Part shown: piece by piece, positions 7,397 through 49,752 of the stretch
Layout of the letters: each line of letters starts with the position of its first letter
How positions within the stretch are numbered: the stretch's first letter is position 1
DNA from: Jejubacter calystegiae
Lineage (GTDB): Bacteria; Pseudomonadota; Gammaproteobacteria; Enterobacterales; Enterobacteriaceae
DNA length: 64,000 bases
Direction: 5' to 3'
NCBI RefSeq assembly: GCF_005671395.1
Contig: NZ_CP040428.1
Span: 1,302,001 to 1,366,000, forward strand
Notes under the pieces: generated by a model
Told to the model about the DNA's origin: nothing
Databases searched by the model: none
Seen by the model: only the letters and a program-made list of their open reading frames with translations
Position numbers and translations under genes: made by a program

Positions 7397-7993
7397 CTAC
7401 TGTAGCTGTGCGGCGACCAGCGGCCAGCGGGCTTCGAAATCGTCGGTGGGACGGTAGCGGAATTCGCTGCGCACGAAGCGTGACAGCATGCCCTCGCAGA
7501 AAGCCAGCAGTTGGCTGGCCAGCAGCGTTTCGTCGGTTACATAGCCTTTGCCTTCACGCATTTTGCGTTCGCGCAACACCTGGCGCAACTGGGCTTCAAT
7601 GCGTTCGAATAGCTGGTTAATACGGCCCTGGAGACGGTCCTGTTCAAACATCAGCGCATGACCGGTCATAATGCGAGTCAGCCCCGGGTTACGCTCGCCG
7701 AAACCCAGAATCAGCAGCACAATCAAACGCAGGCGGGCGCTGGTCTCTTTCTCATCTTTCAGAATTAAATTAATACGGGTGATCAGGCTGTCTTCAATAA
7801 ACTCGATCAGGCTGTCAAACATCCGGGTTTTGCTGGGAAAATGGCGATAAAGTGCAGCTTCAGAGACGCCTACGGACGCGGCCAGCTTTGCTGTGGTAAT
7901 GCGCTGGCTTCCATCGCTGGATTCAAGCATCTGTGCCAGAGACTGAAGTATTTCTTCGCGACGATTCCTTTTCGCAGTCTGTTTTTCTGCCAT
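7397..7993 (-). CDS. slmA: Nucleoid occlusion factor SlmA
   Basis: A 198-residue TetR-type DNA-binding protein, the same length as E. coli SlmA. The helix-turn-helix is [28 protein letters not shown] (about residues 32-59). SlmA binds specific sites across the chromosome except near the terminus and blocks FtsZ ring assembly over the nucleoid. In E. coli it follows pyrE directly; here three genes intervene. It is upstream of dut and in the same direction. Confidence 0.97.
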
Positions 7994-8109
7994 GTTTTAA
8001 AATACCCCTGAAATGAACACGAGCGGCCACGCAGAATCCGCAGGCATTTTACCTGCGGAGATATTTTTACGTTATTAACGCTGCGGGCGCGTCTGAATTC
8101 CGGACTGAT

Positions 8110-8565
8110 TTACTGACGGCCGGAATGGCCAAAGCCGCCTTCGCCACGGTCGGTGACGTCGAAGGATTCAACCAGGTTAAATTCCGCCTGAACAACCGGA
8201 ACAAATACCATCTGGGCGATGCGTTCGCCCGGCTCGATAGTAAAGCTATCCTGACCGCGATTCCATACGGAGACCATGAGCTGACCCTGATAGTCGGAAT
8301 CGATAAGCCCTACCAGGTTACCCAGTACAACGCCGTGCTTGTGGCCCAGGCCGGAGCGCGGAAGAATCACGGCAGCAAGGCTTGGGTCGGCGATATGAAT
8401 GGCCAGACCGGTAGGCAGAAGCGTGGTTGCACCCGGCGCCAGTTCTACGGCGTCGTCCAGACAGGCACGCAGGTCAAGTCCGGCGGAGCCAGAGGTGGCA
8501 TAAGTTGGTAGCGGAAACTGCTGACCAACGCGCGGGTCCAGAATCTTAACGTCGATTTTTTTCAT
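8110..8565 (-). CDS. dut: Deoxyuridine 5'-triphosphate nucleotidohydrolase (dUTPase)
   Basis: A trimeric dUTPase that makes dUMP and pyrophosphate, supplying thymidylate synthesis and keeping uracil out of DNA. About 151 residues. The five family motifs are present, including [35 protein letters not shown] and the glycine-rich C-terminal [10 protein letters not shown]. Two adjacent ATGs (8568 and 8565) are possible; the second gives MKKIDVKIL. The start overlaps the end of coaBC by 20 bases, so the two are translationally coupled, as in E. coli. Confidence 0.97.
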
Positions 8566-9763
8566 CATAACGGGTAACAATCTCGTCGAGTAACTGATGG
8601 CCAAGGAGAGACTTCCGCCCATGCGGCAGGATCTTATCTCCCCCCTGCCAGAAAAGATGCAGCGCATTGCTATCGCTATTAAATCCCTGATCAGACTGGG
8701 AAACATCGTTAGCGCAAATCAGATCGAGGTTTTTCCTCTCGCGTTTTTGCCGGGCATATTCTTCCACATTATTTGTTTCTGCGGCAAACCCAACAACGTA
8801 GGGTCGTCTGGTTTTTAAGGCTGCTACCCCGGCGACAATATCCGGGTTTTTGACCATTTTTATTGTTAATTCATCGCCTTGCTTTTTGATTTTCTCATCA
8901 GCGATTGCGGCAGCGCGGTAGTCGGCCACTGCGGCGCAGCCGATAAAAATATGCTGTTGCGCTGCGTGCTGTTGTACGGCAGCTTCCATCTCCAGGGCGG
9001 AAGTGACGTCGATACGTTTTACCCAGGGCGGCGTGGCCAGGGAAACCGGCCCGGCCACCAGGGTGACATTCGCGCCACGCGCAGCGGCGGCGGCGGCAAT
9101 GGCAAACCCCATCTTACCCGAGCTGTGATTGGTGATATAGCGCACCGGATCCAGCGGTTCGCGGGTTGGGCCGGCGGTAATCATGATATTCAGATGCTGG
9201 AGGTCTTTCGCTGGCGCGAAGTGATGCCCTGCCATATCGACGATGGTGAGCGGATCGAGCATGCGTCCGGGACCGATGTCGCCGCAGGCCTGGCTGCCGC
9301 TGTCCGGCCCCCAGATTAACAGTTCGCGGTCGGCCAGGACCCCAAGATTATGCTGGGTGGCGGCGGCGCGATACATCTGTTGGTTCATGGCAGGTACGAC
9401 CGCAACTGGCGCAGGCGTCGCCAGGCAGAGGGTGGAGACCAGATCGTTGGCCATGCCTGCGGCAATCCGGGCGATGAGGTCGGCAGTGGCAGGGGCCAGA
9501 ATCACCAGATCGGCCCATTTACCCAGCTCGATATGTCCCATAGCCGCTTCTGCTGCGGGATCCAGCAGGCTATCGGATACCGGGTAGCCGGAAACGGCCT
9601 GCAGGCTCATAGGCGTAATAAAGGCTTTGGCCGCATCGGTCATGGCCACACGTACCTCAGCGCCGTGCTCCCGCAGACGGCGTACCAGTTCGGGCGCTTT
9701 ATAGGCAGCGATGCCGCCGCTAATTCCCAGAACGATTTTCTTGCCGGAAAGCCCCATCATCAT
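8546..9763 (-). CDS. coaBC: Bifunctional phosphopantothenoylcysteine decarboxylase / phosphopantothenate-cysteine ligase
   Basis: A 405-residue fusion that makes 4'-phosphopantetheine in coenzyme A synthesis. The N-terminal CoaC flavoprotein domain (to about residue 190) has [10 protein letters not shown], the catalytic histidine in [20 protein letters not shown] and the cysteine in [13 protein letters not shown]. The C-terminal CoaB ligase has [24 protein letters not shown] and the lysine-rich KIKK loop. The gene begins with three ATGs in a row; the AGGAA site suits the first or second. It diverges from radC. Confidence 0.97.
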
Positions 9764-9903
9764 TGGTTCCTGTAGTCATTTTCAGTCAGTGTAATGGCCT
9801 CATTTTACCATAACCCTTGCATCGTGATCGGCGTGTGCATTGCGAGATGTGCCGCAAATTGTTTGTTTCTTGCTCGACGCCATGTGGACTCTTACGACAA
9901 AAT

Positions 9904-44066: not shown

Positions 44067-44108
44067 CCTCCGGCTCCCTTCCCAAAAGTAAAAGGTATGT
44101 GACAGCGA

Positions 44109-44144
44109 TCAAAAGATATAAAAGTATACCTTTATGTCTTTTGA
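44109..44144. promoter_or_regulatory. 36-bp palindrome, candidate operator of the GntR/UTRA regulator
   Basis: TCAAAAGATATAAA (44109-44122) and TTTATGTCTTTTGA (44131-44144) are reverse complements except for one base, and the centre AGTATACC holds the palindrome GTATAC. In all 16 of 18 base pairs match. It lies 142 bases before the first gene of the cluster. The length suggests two regulator dimers. The regulator gene at 47686 is the natural candidate. Confidence 0.6.
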
Positions 44145-44248
44145 TTAAATCTTAGACTGTACCTGCCACACCAACCCGTGAAGTCTGCCGTATTGTTCGG
44201 GAATTTAATAAAAAAGACATTATTTTTCATGCCATTAATTTAAATCCA

Positions 44249-44285: not shown

Positions 44286-45623
44286 ATGATGAAGCTCTCT
44301 GTTGTGGAAAAAATAGGCTTTGGCGCTGGGGATATGGCCGTCAACGTGGTGATTGTCGCCATGCAATTGCTACTGGCTTACTTCTATACGGATATTTATG
44401 GGCTGCGCCCGGCTGATGTGGGGGTCTTACTGATCGTGGTGCGGATGATCGATGCCATTATCGACCCAGCCATGGGGATCCTCACCGACAAAATAAATAC
44501 CCGCTGGGGGCGTTATCGCCCCTGGCTTATCTGGTTCGCCATTCCGTTTGGCTTTGCCGTGTATCTGATGTTTATTACCCCGGATCTGGCCTATACCACC
44601 AGGCTCGCCTGGGCCTATTTCTCTTACATTCTGATGACCCTGGTCTACACGGCGATCACCATTCCTTATATCTCCCTGATAGGCGTGATTACTGACGATC
44701 CGGTGGAGCGTCTGAGCGCGAATGGCTACCGGTTTGTCATGACCAAAATCGCCGCTTTCCTGGTGACCATTGTGGTGCCGATGCTGGCGGTCTGGTTGGG
44801 GCAGGGGAACAAAGCGTTGGGGTATCAGTTTGCGATGGGGTTGATGGGTGCGATGGGGACGCTGCTGTTTCTGTTCTGTTTCTTTACCACCCGTGAACGA
44901 CTGAAACCGGAAATTCCCACCCTACCGTTGAAGCAGCAGTTTGCCTGCATGCTGCGTAACGATCAGTGGATTATCCTGGGTATCGTGATTTTACTGCTGA
45001 TGTGCGGCTACGTGATTCGCGGCTCGGTGGCGGCCTATTACGCTAAATATTTTTTAGGCGGCGGCGATGCACTGATTTCGCCATTCCTGACGGTGGGGGT
45101 GGTGGCTTCGATTCTGGCGATGGTCAGCACCACCTGGCTGACCCGGTTTTACGACAAAATTAAACTGTTTCGCTATACCCAGCTTATTACCTTCGCGCTG
45201 AGCATTGCCATGTATCTGCTGGTGGGTCAGCAGGATGTGGTGCTGGCGTTTGTTTTCTACTTCCTGATCAATTTCTTCTGCGACATGCAGATGCCGGTGT
45301 TCTGGTCCTCCATCGCCGAAGCTGTAGATTACGGTGAAAAGAAGAACGGCCAGCGTGTTTCCGGCCTGGCATTTGGCGGCATCCTGTTTTTCCAGAAATT
45401 TGGAATGGGCATTGCTGGCGGCATGCTGGGTTTCCTGCTTAATGCGTTCGGTTATCAGGCCGATACCGCCCAGAGCGCGAGCTCGCTGGCGGGTATTGCG
45501 CTGATGATGACGCTGATCCCCGCGCTGTTCCATCTGGCTATCGGCCTGCTGATGAAACGCTACCGCATTAATAACGACTATTACCGCGAAATTCGCGGTG
45601 AGCTGGCACGTCGCCAGGCGTAA
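44286..45623 (+). CDS. GPH-family (melibiose-type) sugar or nucleoside transporter
   Basis: A 445-residue, 12-segment transporter of the glycoside-pentoside-hexuronide family (MFS). FGAGDMAVNVVIVAMQLLLAYFYTDI and DAIIDPAMGILTDKINTRWGRYRPW (the conserved acidic and basic residues) are diagnostic. Substrates enter with cations. The neighbouring kinase and glycohydrolase-fold protein suggest a ribosyl compound such as aminoimidazole riboside. The start is ATGATG with GAGAGGGG just before it. Confidence 0.88.
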   Translation: MMKLSVVEKIGFGAGDMAVNVVIVAMQLLLAYFYTDIYGLRPADVGVLLIVVRMIDAIIDPAMGILTDKINTRWGRYRPWLIWFAIPFGFAVYLMFITPDLAYTTRLAWAYFSYILMTLVYTAITIPYISLIGVITDDPVERLSANGYRFVMTKIAAFLVTIVVPMLAVWLGQGNKALGYQFAMGLMGAMGTLLFLFCFFTTRERLKPEIPTLPLKQQFACMLRNDQWIILGIVILLLMCGYVIRGSVAAYYAKYFLGGGDALISPFLTVGVVASILAMVSTTWLTRFYDKIKLFRYTQLITFALSIAMYLLVGQQDVVLAFVFYFLINFFCDMQMPVFWSSIAEAVDYGEKKNGQRVSGLAFGGILFFQKFGMGIAGGMLGFLLNAFGYQADTAQSASSLAGIALMMTLIPALFHLAIGLLMKRYRINNDYYREIRGELARRQA

Positions 45624-45632
45624 GGAGGGGCG

Positions 45633-46559
45633 ATGAGCAGAGTCTGGGTAATGGGTGATGCCTCTGTCGATCTGATGCCGGATGATGAGACGCACTACCT
45701 TAAGTGCCCCGGTGGTGCCGCGCTGAATGTGGCGGTGTGCGTGGCACGACTGGGAGGGGACTGCGGCTTTATTGGTCGTCTGGGGCAGGATGATACGGGC
45801 GCCTTCCTGCGTCATGTCTTTATGCGTGAAGGCGTGGATGTCACGCATCTGCGCCCGGATGCGGCGCTAACCAGCGCCGTGTTAATCGTCAGCCTGGACC
45901 CCTGCGGGGAACGCAGCTTCACCTATCTGGTGCGGCCGAGCGCCGATACCTTCGTGACCGCGCAGGATTTACCGGTGTTCCAGCCCGGGGAATGGCTGTG
46001 CTTTAGCTCGATCGGCCTGACCGACGAACCGGCCCGCACGGCCTGCCTGGAGGCTGCCCGCCGAATGCGCCACGCAGGTGGCAGCGTTATGTTTGACGTC
46101 AATCTGCGCGAGGCGATGTGGCCTGAGCCTCAGGCAATTTCCCGGGTGATCGAGCAGGCCATTGGTTTTGCATCCATTGGCAAGGTATCGGCAGATGAAC
46201 TCTGTCGCCTGAGTGGCACGCATCACTGGCGGGAAGCGCGTTTCTACCTGCGCGATCGCGGCTGCCCGATCACGGTGATCTCATTGGGCGATGAAGGCGC
46301 CTGGGTGATTTCGCCTGAGGGAGAACGCCATTTTAGCGGCTTTCCGGCTCAGGTGCGGGATACCACCGGTGCCGGAGATGCCTTCGTGGGTGGACTGCTT
46401 TACACCCTTTCCTGTGAGAGCGCCTCTCTGGCGGCGGCGGTCAATAATGCCAATGCCTGCGGCGCCCTGGCAGTCACCGCGAAAGGCGCCATTACCGCGC
46501 TGCCCAACCTCGCACAGTTGCACCAGTTCCTGGCCCGAAAAGCCGGAACATCGCTTTAA
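45633..46559 (+). CDS. PfkB-family kinase, probable aminoimidazole riboside kinase
   Basis: A 308-residue ribokinase-family enzyme. VWVMGDASVDLMPD starts it, CPGGAALNVAVCVARLGG binds the sugar, and DTTGAGDAFVGGLL is the ATP/anion-hole motif with the catalytic Asp. The sequence is strikingly like Salmonella STM4066, which phosphorylates aminoimidazole riboside to AIR and feeds thiamine synthesis. Annotations of fructokinase are possible but less specific. AAGGAGGGGCG lies before ATG. Second gene of the cluster. Confidence 0.85.
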   Translation: MSRVWVMGDASVDLMPDDETHYLKCPGGAALNVAVCVARLGGDCGFIGRLGQDDTGAFLRHVFMREGVDVTHLRPDAALTSAVLIVSLDPCGERSFTYLVRPSADTFVTAQDLPVFQPGEWLCFSSIGLTDEPARTACLEAARRMRHAGGSVMFDVNLREAMWPEPQAISRVIEQAIGFASIGKVSADELCRLSGTHHWREARFYLRDRGCPITVISLGDEGAWVISPEGERHFSGFPAQVRDTTGAGDAFVGGLLYTLSCESASLAAAVNNANACGALAVTAKGAITALPNLAQLHQFLARKAGTSL

Positions 46560-46582
46560 TAACCAATGACAGGAGCAAAATC

Positions 46583-47623
46583 ATGCAAGTGGATTCAGAT
46601 AAGGTTCTGGGATGCCTGGTGGGGGCCGCGGCGGCCGATGCCATGGGCGCGGCAACCGAAGTTCGCACTCAGCAGCAGATTCAGGATTACTTCGGCGGTT
46701 GGGTCACCGACTTTCGCAAACCGCCTGCCGACACCTTTGGTCGTTGTAATGAGGCCGGGATGTGTACCGATGATTTTCTGCAGGGTTATTACATCATGGA
46801 GTCGCTGCTGAACCACCAGCGCCAGGTGAGTGATGCTGCGATGCGCGAGGCATTCTCTCGCTGGCTGGCTTATCCTTACTACGCTAATTTTACCGGCCCG
46901 ACCACGCGTGCGGCCATGAAGGCGATTTTTAATGACGAGCGCCCCTCGCTTCAGGGAGAGCTGGAGGGCGAAAAGCAGTCGGTACAGATTATTAATAACG
47001 GCAACGCCGAGGCAACCAACGGCTCGGCAATGAAGATCTGGCCCGCGGCATTGCTTCATCCTGGCGATACTGACGCGGCCATTGCCTGCGCGCTGGATGT
47101 TTGTCGCTTTACCCATAATAACCTGTTGGCGATGTCTGGTGCTGCCGCCGTCGCGGCTGCGATAAGCGAAGCTCTGCGTCCGGTGACCAGCGCCGATGCC
47201 ATCATCGCCGCTGGCGTCTATGGCGCGACCCGGGGTTACCGACTGGCGCAAGAGCAGGGGGCAATGACCGTTGCCGGGCCTTCTGTGGCACGCCGCATTG
47301 ATCTGGCAGTGCAAATTGGCAGGCGTCATCGTCACTGGGAAACGGCCATCGTAGAGCTGAATGATATTATCGGTAGCGGCCTGCACGTCAGCGAAGCGGT
47401 TCCTGCCGCGTTTGGGCTGTTCGCCTGCTGTCCGGATTCTGCCGTTGATGCTATTATTTCGGCCGTTAATATTGGCAATGATACCGATACGGTAGCCACG
47501 ATGGTGGGGGCCATTTCCGGCGCATTTCACGGCGCGGGAGCGCTTCCCGCCCATTATCTGACTACCGTCGACAGCATGAACCACTTCGATCTGGCTACGC
47601 TTGCCAGGAAGATTGCAGGGTAA
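46583..47623 (+). CDS. ADP-ribosylglycohydrolase-fold protein
   Basis: A 346-residue protein of the DraG/ARH family, which removes ADP-ribose or hydrolyses N-ribosyl bonds with magnesium. VLGCLVGAAAADAMGAATE is the N-terminal motif, CTDDFLQ holds the first metal Asp pair and NIGNDTDTVATMVGAISGA the second. The position between a kinase and a regulator, like yegU in the E. coli yegTUVW cluster, suggests release of ribose-like parts from an N-riboside. The substrate is unknown. AGGAGCAAAATC precedes ATG. Confidence 0.88.
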   Translation: MQVDSDKVLGCLVGAAAADAMGAATEVRTQQQIQDYFGGWVTDFRKPPADTFGRCNEAGMCTDDFLQGYYIMESLLNHQRQVSDAAMREAFSRWLAYPYYANFTGPTTRAAMKAIFNDERPSLQGELEGEKQSVQIINNGNAEATNGSAMKIWPAALLHPGDTDAAIACALDVCRFTHNNLLAMSGAAAVAAAISEALRPVTSADAIIAAGVYGATRGYRLAQEQGAMTVAGPSVARRIDLAVQIGRRHRHWETAIVELNDIIGSGLHVSEAVPAAFGLFACCPDSAVDAIISAVNIGNDTDTVATMVGAISGAFHGAGALPAHYLTTVDSMNHFDLATLARKIAG

Positions 47624-47685
47624 GTGAAGCGGTTACCCTGCCGGGGATGGTGTGGCCATCCCCCGCAATCCAGTGAGGTAACCCG

Positions 47686-48408
47686 GTGCAGGTTGATAAG
47701 GAAAGTTTCACGCCACTCTACAAGCAGTTGTTTTACATTATCTGCCAGCAAATCCAGAGCGGGACCTGGGCGCTGGGTCAGCAGCTTCCGACTCAAAAAG
47801 AGATTGCCCGCCTTTACAATGTTTCGCTGATTGTCGTTAAGCAGGCGTGGAATGAGCTGGTCAGCGCCGGTTTTATTACCTCCCAACGCGGCAGCGGCTC
47901 GGTGGTGAGTGCGGTGCCGGACGGAGTGAGCTATGGTCATACCTTCCGGGGGATTACCCGCGACCTCCAGGATGCCAATATCCCGGTGGAAAACCAGATT
48001 CTGGAGATATCACCTCGCCATGCGCGTGATGCGCTGGCACACGGACTGAGCCTGCCTCCCCATCATCAGTTCCTCTATATTTCCCGGGTGCGCAGTCTGA
48101 AAGGGCGGCCTTTCAATCATGAGCATATCTATCTTGATACGACCTTTTTCCCGCAGCTAACGCTCAATGCTGACGATCTGCGGCACGAGTCGCTGTATGC
48201 GTTGCTTGGCGTGCATAGCGATTCGGCTATCGAAAAAGTGGATGCCATTCTGCCCACGGCCGCGCTGTGTGACAGTCTGGGGATTTCGGCGCAGAAGCCG
48301 CTGCTGTCGGTGGCGCGCCAGACCTTTCAGGCCGGGCAGGAGCGCCCCTTTGAGTATTGCCGCTACTACGTACTGTCAGACTATTTTGGCGAAATCTATT
48401 ACCACTGA
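47686..48408 (+). CDS. GntR/HutC (UTRA) transcriptional regulator
   Basis: A 240-residue regulator with an N-terminal winged helix (PLYKQLFYIICQQIQSGTWALG... PTQKEIARLYNVSLIVVKQAWNEL; residues 9-66) and a UTRA ligand domain from about 95. It should bind a small metabolite of the cluster pathway. The GTG start is preceded by GTGAGG. The matching Salmonella gene (STM4068) is reported to repress the kinase gene. The 36-bp palindrome upstream is a candidate operator. Confidence 0.9.
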   Translation: MQVDKESFTPLYKQLFYIICQQIQSGTWALGQQLPTQKEIARLYNVSLIVVKQAWNELVSAGFITSQRGSGSVVSAVPDGVSYGHTFRGITRDLQDANIPVENQILEISPRHARDALAHGLSLPPHHQFLYISRVRSLKGRPFNHEHIYLDTTFFPQLTLNADDLRHESLYALLGVHSDSAIEKVDAILPTAALCDSLGISAQKPLLSVARQTFQAGQERPFEYCRYYVLSDYFGEIYYH

Positions 48409-48447
48409 GTTTCCAATAACAACAATGACCCCTTGCTGGAGACAGGC

Positions 48448-49752
48448 ATGTCTGAATTACTGACCCATCCGCTGTTCTGGCCGACCCTGGTGATTACCGT
48501 TACGTTGATTCTGTGGGCAACGTCGGCGCTGCCGGAGTTCCTGACGGCGCTGCTGTTTTTTGCCGTCGCTATGATGGGTCATATCGTGCCTGCGCAAACG
48601 CTGTTTAGCGGTTTTGCCTCCTCTGCGTTCTGGCTGGTGTTTAGCGGATTTGTACTGGGGGTCGCCATTCGCAAGACCGGGCTGGCCGACCGGGCCGCCG
48701 CCGTGATTTCGGCGCGCCTGACCGGCAGCTGGTGGCAACTGGTGGCGAGCGTGGTATTGCTGAGTTATGCGCTGGCTTTTGTGATGCCTTCCAATATGGG
48801 GCGTATCGCGCTGCTGATGCCGGTGGTGGGCGCTATGGCGAAGCGGGTAGGGATTATGGAAGGCAGTCGCGGCTGGTTTGGTCTGGCGCTGGCGGTAGGG
48901 TTTGGTACTTTCCAACTTTCCGCCACCATCTTGCCTGCCAATGTGCCCAACCTGGTGATGAGCGGGGCGACGGAAGGCGCCTACGGCATCCATCTGAACT
49001 ATCTGCCTTATCTGTTGCTGCACACCCCTGTGCTGGGCATCCTGAAGGGGATCGTATTAATCGCCCTGATTAGCTGGTTGTTTCCGGGCACACCGCAGCT
49101 TCCCCGTGAACCGATGCAGTCAGAGCCCTTTAGCATGGCGGAAAAGCGCTTAGCCGTGCTGCTGGCGATAGTTCTGGGACTATGGGTGAGCGAAAGCTGG
49201 CACGGCATCGGCCCGGCATGGATTGGGCTGGCTGCCGCCTGTGTGACCCTGCTACCACGGGTAGGTTTTATTAACGGTGAGGAGTTTGCCAAAGGCGTGA
49301 ATATGCGCACCTGCATCTACGTGGCGGGCATTCTGGGGCTGGCAGCGGCGGTAACGCAAAGCGGACTGGGAGATGCGGTTGGCGCCTGGTTGATGGAGGT
49401 GATGCCGCTGGATCCCGGGCGGCCCTTTACCAGCTTCGCGGCGCTAACCGGGATCACCACGGCGCTGAATTTTATTATGACCGCCAACGGTGTACCGGCG
49501 CTGTACACTACGCTTGCCCAGAGCTTTTCCGGCGCAACCGGCTTTCCGTTGCTGTCGGTGATTATGATTCAGGTGCTGGGTTATTCCACGCCGCTGCTGC
49601 CGTATCAGGCATCGCCCATTGTGGTGGCGATGGCGCTGGGCAGAGTCCCGGCGCGTCAGGGCATCAAGCTTTGTCTGGCGCTGGCGCTGGTGACTTTCCT
49701 TGTTCTGCTGCCGCTCAATTACGGCTGGTTTCTGGTGTTGCACCAGCTATAA
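48448..49752 (+). CDS. SLC13/DASS-type membrane carrier
   Basis: A 434-residue protein with 10-12 membrane segments, similar to the anion-symporter (DASS/ArsB-like) superfamily. GFASSAFWLVFSGFVLGVAIRKTG and AFVMPSNMGRIALLMPVV (SNM motif) plus MTANGVPALYT suit that family. It is second-last in the salvage cluster, so it could carry a related acid or exporter substrate. The ATG at 48448 is preceded by GGAG; an earlier TTG is less likely. A terminator follows. Confidence 0.78.
   Translation: MSELLTHPLFWPTLVITVTLILWATSALPEFLTALLFFAVAMMGHIVPAQTLFSGFASSAFWLVFSGFVLGVAIRKTGLADRAAAVISARLTGSWWQLVASVVLLSYALAFVMPSNMGRIALLMPVVGAMAKRVGIMEGSRGWFGLALAVGFGTFQLSATILPANVPNLVMSGATEGAYGIHLNYLPYLLLHTPVLGILKGIVLIALISWLFPGTPQLPREPMQSEPFSMAEKRLAVLLAIVLGLWVSESWHGIGPAWIGLAAACVTLLPRVGFINGEEFAKGVNMRTCIYVAGILGLAAAVTQSGLGDAVGAWLMEVMPLDPGRPFTSFAALTGITTALNFIMTANGVPALYTTLAQSFSGATGFPLLSVIMIQVLGYSTPLLPYQASPIVVAMALGRVPARQGIKLCLALALVTFLVLLPLNYGWFLVLHQL

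Follow-up and report, generated by a model that had tools for sequence, protein, structure and literature searches.

A four-gene symporter, kinase, ARH-fold hydrolase and regulator cassette between cdh and tpiA of Jejubacter calystegiae

Genes between cdh and tpiA

We analyzed a stretch of 64,000 nucleotides from Jejubacter calystegiae (contig NZ_CP040428.1, positions 1,302,001 to 1,366,000), referred to below as the window. Between cdh and tpiA it carries five contiguous open reading frames on the + strand (44286-45623, 45633-46559, 46583-47623, 47686-48408 and 48433-49752), which match the families MFS_2/GPH, PfkB, ADP_ribosyl_GH, GntR with UTRA and CitMHS/Na_sulph_symp in this order, all above the Pfam cut-offs. 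An earlier note on this DNA had named these reading frames, families and flanks, and coordinates and Pfam matches confirm them. Its description of a five-gene cluster holds for four of the genes, which travel together, but not for the last, which occupies the cdh-tpiA gap independently of them. The unit is a cassette of four genes, a GPH symporter, a PfkB kinase, a hydrolase of the ADP-ribosylhydrolase (ARH) fold and a GntR/UTRA regulator, orthologous to Salmonella STM4065-4068, and the locus is hence a member of a known but unexplained system.

The GPH-family symporter (44286..45623, + strand; MFS_2 match 1e-101) scores 362 bits against TIGR00792, above the cut-off of 231, and is 83% identical to its ortholog STM4065. 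For the kinase (45633..46559, +) the nearest solved relative is the Salmonella aminoimidazole riboside (AIRs) kinase, PDB 1TYY, at E 4e-125, a likeness that had already been recognized in the note, and the next is a Vibrio fructokinase at about 1e-87. With 66% identity, shared GPH, ARH and GntR neighbours and an intact DTTGAGD sequence including the GAGD catalytic motif, it is the ortholog of STM4066. The ARH-fold protein (46583..47623, +), a predicted phosphoglycoside hydrolase, is 85% identical to STM4067. The last gene of the cassette encodes the GntR/UTRA regulator (47686..48408, +; assigned by Pfam), which is 75% identical to STM4068 and adjoins the ARH in every window-type locus as well as in a Klebsiella variant described below. 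Against TIGR02018, the model of the histidine-utilization repressor HutC, it reaches 86.5 bits where the cut-off is 220, and the two have only the GntR-UTRA subfamily in common. Imidazole-acetate riboside, a substrate considered on account of this score, found no independent support and was set aside. The four genes, their order, the cdh neighbourhood and the operator are the same in Salmonella; downstream of the cassette, the window has the resident fifth gene and tpiA, and a Salmonella plasmid record has an lsr locus.

Among 392 genomes sampled from the family, 22 had an ARH match at the threshold of E 1e-45; of these, 19 (75-100% identity) belong to the window type, and the other three (36-39% identical) to a related one. 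The gene order GPH-kinase-ARH-GntR is kept in all 19. The cassette also occupies the cdh-tpiA gap, or lies beside cdh, in Salmonella, Raoultella, Cedecea and Klebsiella-like genomes. Serratia, Pantoea and Izhakiella carry the same four genes, in the same order, at other chromosomal sites. The flanks of these relocated copies differ and are uninformative, and an attempt to derive the substrate from them was dropped. In a class-wide search of 369 genomes the host alone matched, and a DNA match to the window cassette was not found in E. coli genomes. Unlinked genes in relatives would have spoken against a common function, yet the four genes are linked in every window-type ortholog found. Note that one copy (L066, genome G410, 7881-9879) is decaying: ARH and kinase are both split into pieces, and the GPH gene reads through.

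The fifth gene (48433-49752) had been counted in the note as part of the system, as a DASS-type carrier. We reject this on the grounds of its distribution and of the cassette-free sites. It is present in 120 of the 392 genomes, about a third, and its nine best relatives all lie beside cdh and all lack the cassette; where the sequence around them extends far enough, tpiA flanks them opposite cdh. It adjoins the cassette in 11 of the 19 cassette genomes because both occupy the same gap. The gene should therefore be dropped from the system as a longer-established occupant of the space between cdh and tpiA, although only 24 bases separate it from gntR, and transcriptional read-through is possible in the host. 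The protein scores 109 bits against the DASS model TIGR00785, under the cut-off of 199, while passing the wider CitMHS and Na_sulph_symp Pfam cut-offs, so that 'DASS-type' is a superfamily label only; a sequence search for a solved relative of this carrier found none.

Control region upstream of the symporter gene

An AT-rich inverted repeat lies upstream of the GPH gene in all 19 aligned sequences, with the full form CAAAAGATATAAAGGTATACCTTTATATCTTTTG. It spans 34 bp in the window (44110..44143), where 15 of 17 positions pair, against a best value of 13 in 300 shuffles, and five loci including Salmonella reach 17 of 17. In the Serratia/Pantoea group 12-15 pairs are found, some not exceeding their own shuffles. 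The repeat is unique, occurring once in the window and nowhere else in the host genome of 5.18 Mb, and is predicted to be the operator of the GntR/UTRA regulator. Comparable operators were also searched before the distant locus types (L078, L143, L079, L086 and L119), with no match. The repeat overlaps a CRP-like TGTGAN6TCAAA, the putative CRP site TGTGACAGCGATCAAA (44098..44113, +), and TGTGAN6TCAAAAGATATAA stands exactly before GPH in most orthologs. Further downstream, the aligned upstream regions suggest a possible -10 element TAGACT (44153..44158, +), which is TACACT in many orthologs; an automatic promoter scan called neither this candidate nor the promoter proposed below.

By position, the arrangement looks like a CRP-activated promoter with an operator covering the -35 region. 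As palindrome and CRP-like site stand together before GPH and the palindrome is unique in the host genome, the cassette has the appearance of a catabolic operon that CRP activates and GntR represses, and the layout fits one for a carbon source. Such control bears on the suggestion that the natural role is salvage of AIRs or AICA-riboside into the purine/thiamine pathway, with the ARH as a side enzyme, which we consider very unlikely. The identity of the kinase to STM4066 and the genetics cited in PMC3161100 speak for it. Against it, the CRP-like site suggests carbon use, and the conserved partner is the ARH, not a biosynthetic enzyme. Moreover, AIRs is not known as an abundant environmental nutrient.

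Pocket and partners of the ARH-fold enzyme

The window ARH matches PF03747 at 5.5e-57 with the metal-site residues E26, T62-D64 and D300-D302 present, and its AlphaFold model (mean pLDDT 79, pTM 0.84) aligns with MJ1187, ARH3, DraG and Tri1 at Z ~30. Within its branch, all 66 proteins share T62, D63, D64, D300, T301, D302, N146, G147 and H178, and 62 of them have E26; a loop G-P-[ST]-[ST] likewise occurs in all 66, and a TNG motif marks the branch. In ARH3, the pyrophosphate is contacted by Gly105, Val106, Gly138, Ser134 and His168, and the adenosine is stacked by Phe129 and Tyr135 (Rack 2018, PMC6309922). In our alignment, the positions of Gly138 and His168 correspond to G147 and H178 in all 66 proteins, and the G-P-[ST]-[ST] loop likewise falls at the pyrophosphate site of ARH3, while that of Tyr135 is held by Ala in the window and by Thr, Val, Leu and others elsewhere, never by an aromatic residue, and that of Phe129 by Asn or a gap. 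Judged by alignment only, none of the 66 keeps the ARH3-type adenosine stack beside the SYGNG motif. With the residues that contact ribose and its proximal phosphate kept in all 66 and the adenosine-stack residues gone, the pocket looks as if built for ribose and one phosphate, minus the adenosine site of ARH3. An ADP-ribosyl group amounts to AMP attached to a 5-phosphoribosyl group, and the product of a riboside kinase would be exactly the portion of it whose contacts the ARH keeps.

DraG, ARH3 and Tri1 share the fold and the two-metal catalytic residues with the window ARH. This common fold and the complete metal site are what favours a role in stripping ADP-ribose from a protein or from ADP-ribosyl compounds in free form, as in DraG, ARH1, ARH3 or Tri1, with the kinase as a separate activity. 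We find this quite unlikely, given that the ARH3 adenosine stack occurs in no member of the subfamily and that the window protein falls far under the cut-offs of the DraG model (TIGR02662, 60.5 bits against 337) and the Tri1 model (NF041672, 45.8 bits against 490). We noticed no ADP-ribosyltransferase encoded nearby, and the ARH is almost always found inside a transporter-linked operon. Besides the missing stack, the GP[ST][ST] loop, the TNG motif and this operon context of uptake and phosphorylation set the branch apart from DraG, ARH3 and Tri1.

For an analysis of genomic context, ARH relatives were gathered by ARH similarity alone, not by partner, and clustered at 80% identity; with two members lacking the branch motifs set aside, 28 clusters remained. 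A PfkB kinase lies within a few kilobases of the ARH in 23 of these, where about 2% would be expected by chance, as the host genome holds about seven other PfkB-like places in its 5.18 Mb. Three clusters have a phosphotransferase system (PTS) and no PfkB, and ARHs outside the subfamily (L073, L075, L076) have neither partner. Transporters vary across the loci and include GPH, NHS nucleoside, NCS1 and ABC types. On a Lactiplantibacillus plasmid (L082:2875-9247), NUDIX, nicotinate phosphoribosyltransferase and isochorismatase genes directly precede the ARH, an NCS1 permease and PfkB, a hint that remnants of pyridine nucleotides may be the cargo there.

The PTS-linked examples all come from plasmid records. 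On the Klebsiella pneumoniae plasmid pC708_1 (L078:4074-9797), an operon combines a mannose-type PTS with two Amidohydro_2 proteins, an ARH 54% identical to that of the window and a GntR regulator; this PTS-driven version of the window system lies near tellurite-resistance genes. Enterococcus raffinosus (L084:4069-6978) and Listeria monocytogenes (L085:4070-6975) combine a PRD-type regulator, a beta-glucoside-type PTS and an ARH, and the usual 6-phospho-beta-glucosidase is not directly within either operon. A PTS phosphorylates its cargo during import, the same job that a transporter and a kinase do as a pair, so that a PTS-paired ARH would have to act on a phosphorylated sugar. The simplest common denominator of both kinds of partner is then that the ARH receives a phosphorylated sugar.

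A further group of loci, here termed type B, was counted in 404 of the 5426 complete genomes of E. coli and is also present in Yersinia and others. Besides GPH, GntR and ARH, these operons encode a SIS protein, a PfkB kinase of ribokinase-like type, a secreted phytase-like protein, a porin of the KdgM type, and UshA or DUF2608; the example of E. coli M8 (L143:4617-12861) is an island between ygiN and parE. With the window they share GPH proteins of one clade (54-61% identity), apart from the four other GPH proteins of the host (33-40%), as well as an ARH (37%), GntR and PfkB. The extra SIS protein, the secreted phytase-like and DUF2608 proteins, the porin and the ribokinase-like character of the kinase set type B apart from the window cassette. 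In one type B locus (L119:3268-11120), a BMP/PnrA-type ABC importer replaces GPH directly before ARH-SIS-PfkB, which is the clearest nucleoside-type link for the ARH branch. The UshA-like nucleotidase and the BMP/PnrA importer point to nucleotide- or nucleoside-like cargo for this transporter group.

Order of steps and related systems

We consider it slightly more probable than not that the cassette serves import, sugar phosphorylation and only then cleavage of the phosphorylated glycoside by the ARH, under activation by CRP and repression by GntR. The GPH symporter would import a small furanoside, with an N-riboside as the likeliest candidate. The PfkB kinase would phosphorylate the 5-OH of its sugar, and the ARH-fold enzyme, using its two-metal site, would split the resulting 5-phosphorylated glycoside at its glycosidic bond to yield ribose-5-phosphate and the free aglycone. 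The gene set, its linkage, the conserved operator and catalytic residues and the pattern of partners are computed observations, and they support the glycoside- or riboside-use operon put forward in the note. The order of steps, the phosphorylated substrate and the products are what we infer.

The note had placed the steps differently, as import, cleavage and phosphorylation. In this main rival, the ARH hydrolyses the unphosphorylated riboside and the kinase acts on the freed sugar, in keeping with an ARH family that works on N- and O-ribosyl bonds and with a kinase of the fructokinase/ribokinase superfamily, whose match to the Vibrio fructokinase was given above. We nevertheless judge it unlikely, as the context opposes it: the PTS-linked relatives have no kinase and would meet a phosphorylated sugar, and the phosphate-contact residues are retained in 66 of 66 proteins. 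The host, too, possesses a ribokinase in an rbsBKR-like ribose operon, which would make a second one in the cassette redundant. In addition, the STM4066 kinase phosphorylates the intact N-riboside AIRs, according to work cited in PMC3161100.

Several points weigh against phosphorylation before cleavage. The AlphaFold model is weakest at residues 101-107 and 122-150, the very region of the phosphate and adenosine contacts, and the ARH3 contacts were transferred to the branch by sequence alignment. ARH1 holds adenosine through another loop, so that ADP-ribose binding is possible in the branch, and Ser/Thr in the G-P-[ST]-[ST] loop also occurs in bacterial ARHs outside the subfamily (MJ1187). Two of the 28 clusters have neither PfkB nor PTS beside the ARH. 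Finally, the PTS argument is one by analogy, as there are only three cases, and in two of them the ARH shares just about 28% identity with that of the window and import is of the hexoside type.

Import, phosphorylation and subsequent cleavage would work like the use of pseudouridine by PsuT, PsuK and PsuG, in which the nucleoside is imported, phosphorylated by a PfkB kinase and cleaved as the 5'-phosphate. The ARH fold would here replace PsuG, which has another fold, cleaves a C-glycoside and bears no family relation to the window ARH. A comparison with yegTUVW of E. coli, suggested in the note, supports kinship: both follow the same logic of permease, ARH, PfkB and GntR (YegW, or GgaR), and the window has the ARH subfamily, PfkB and GntR, with GPH in place of the NHS-type nucleoside permease, while the kinase belongs to another subfamily and the ARHs are only 26-33% identical. 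GgaR is a repressor of yegTUV with an in vitro response to ADP-glucose (PMC10819704), which together with the common architecture might suggest a nucleotide-sugar or glycogen-linked role. Considering the different transporter and kinase subfamilies and the distant ARH, we regard this as very unlikely; the authors themselves call the yegTUV functions unknown and tested ADP-glucose owing to predicted functions (PMC10819704).

STM4067 mutants, lacking the Salmonella ARH, are attenuated in the gut of pigs (PMC3161100). A slim possibility is that the branch consists of phosphoglycoside hydrolases and that the cassette salvages ribosyl groups left over from ADP-ribosylation, or alpha-N-ribosides of a similar kind, such as ribosyl-arginine or alpha-ribazole, which would account for the gut-persistence defect as well as for the ARH fold. 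In the literature searched, mostly without subscription journals, we found no paper treating an ARH as a phosphoglycosidase and, despite the solved kinase structure, no pathway for the Salmonella ortholog; nor did the papers found assign a role to ARH or transporter, in line with the note as regards the ARH. The present analysis adds the exact boundary of the cassette, its operator, the removal of the fifth gene from the system and an order of steps that is open to testing. If cleavage does follow phosphorylation, an ARH-fold branch annotated as ADP-ribosylglycohydrolase in several bacterial groups would be sugar-phosphate glycosidases, and yegTUV and the rhizobial, lactic-acid-bacterial and PTS-linked relatives would need rereading. 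A four-gene unit with one operator, read in this way, narrows the question to a single enzyme assay.

Outside the window, the host genome holds a second ARH-family gene of another subfamily (L076:6875-7777), without PfkB or PTS. HAD phosphatase-like and purine-permease-like genes adjoin it, and pst-like genes lie near.

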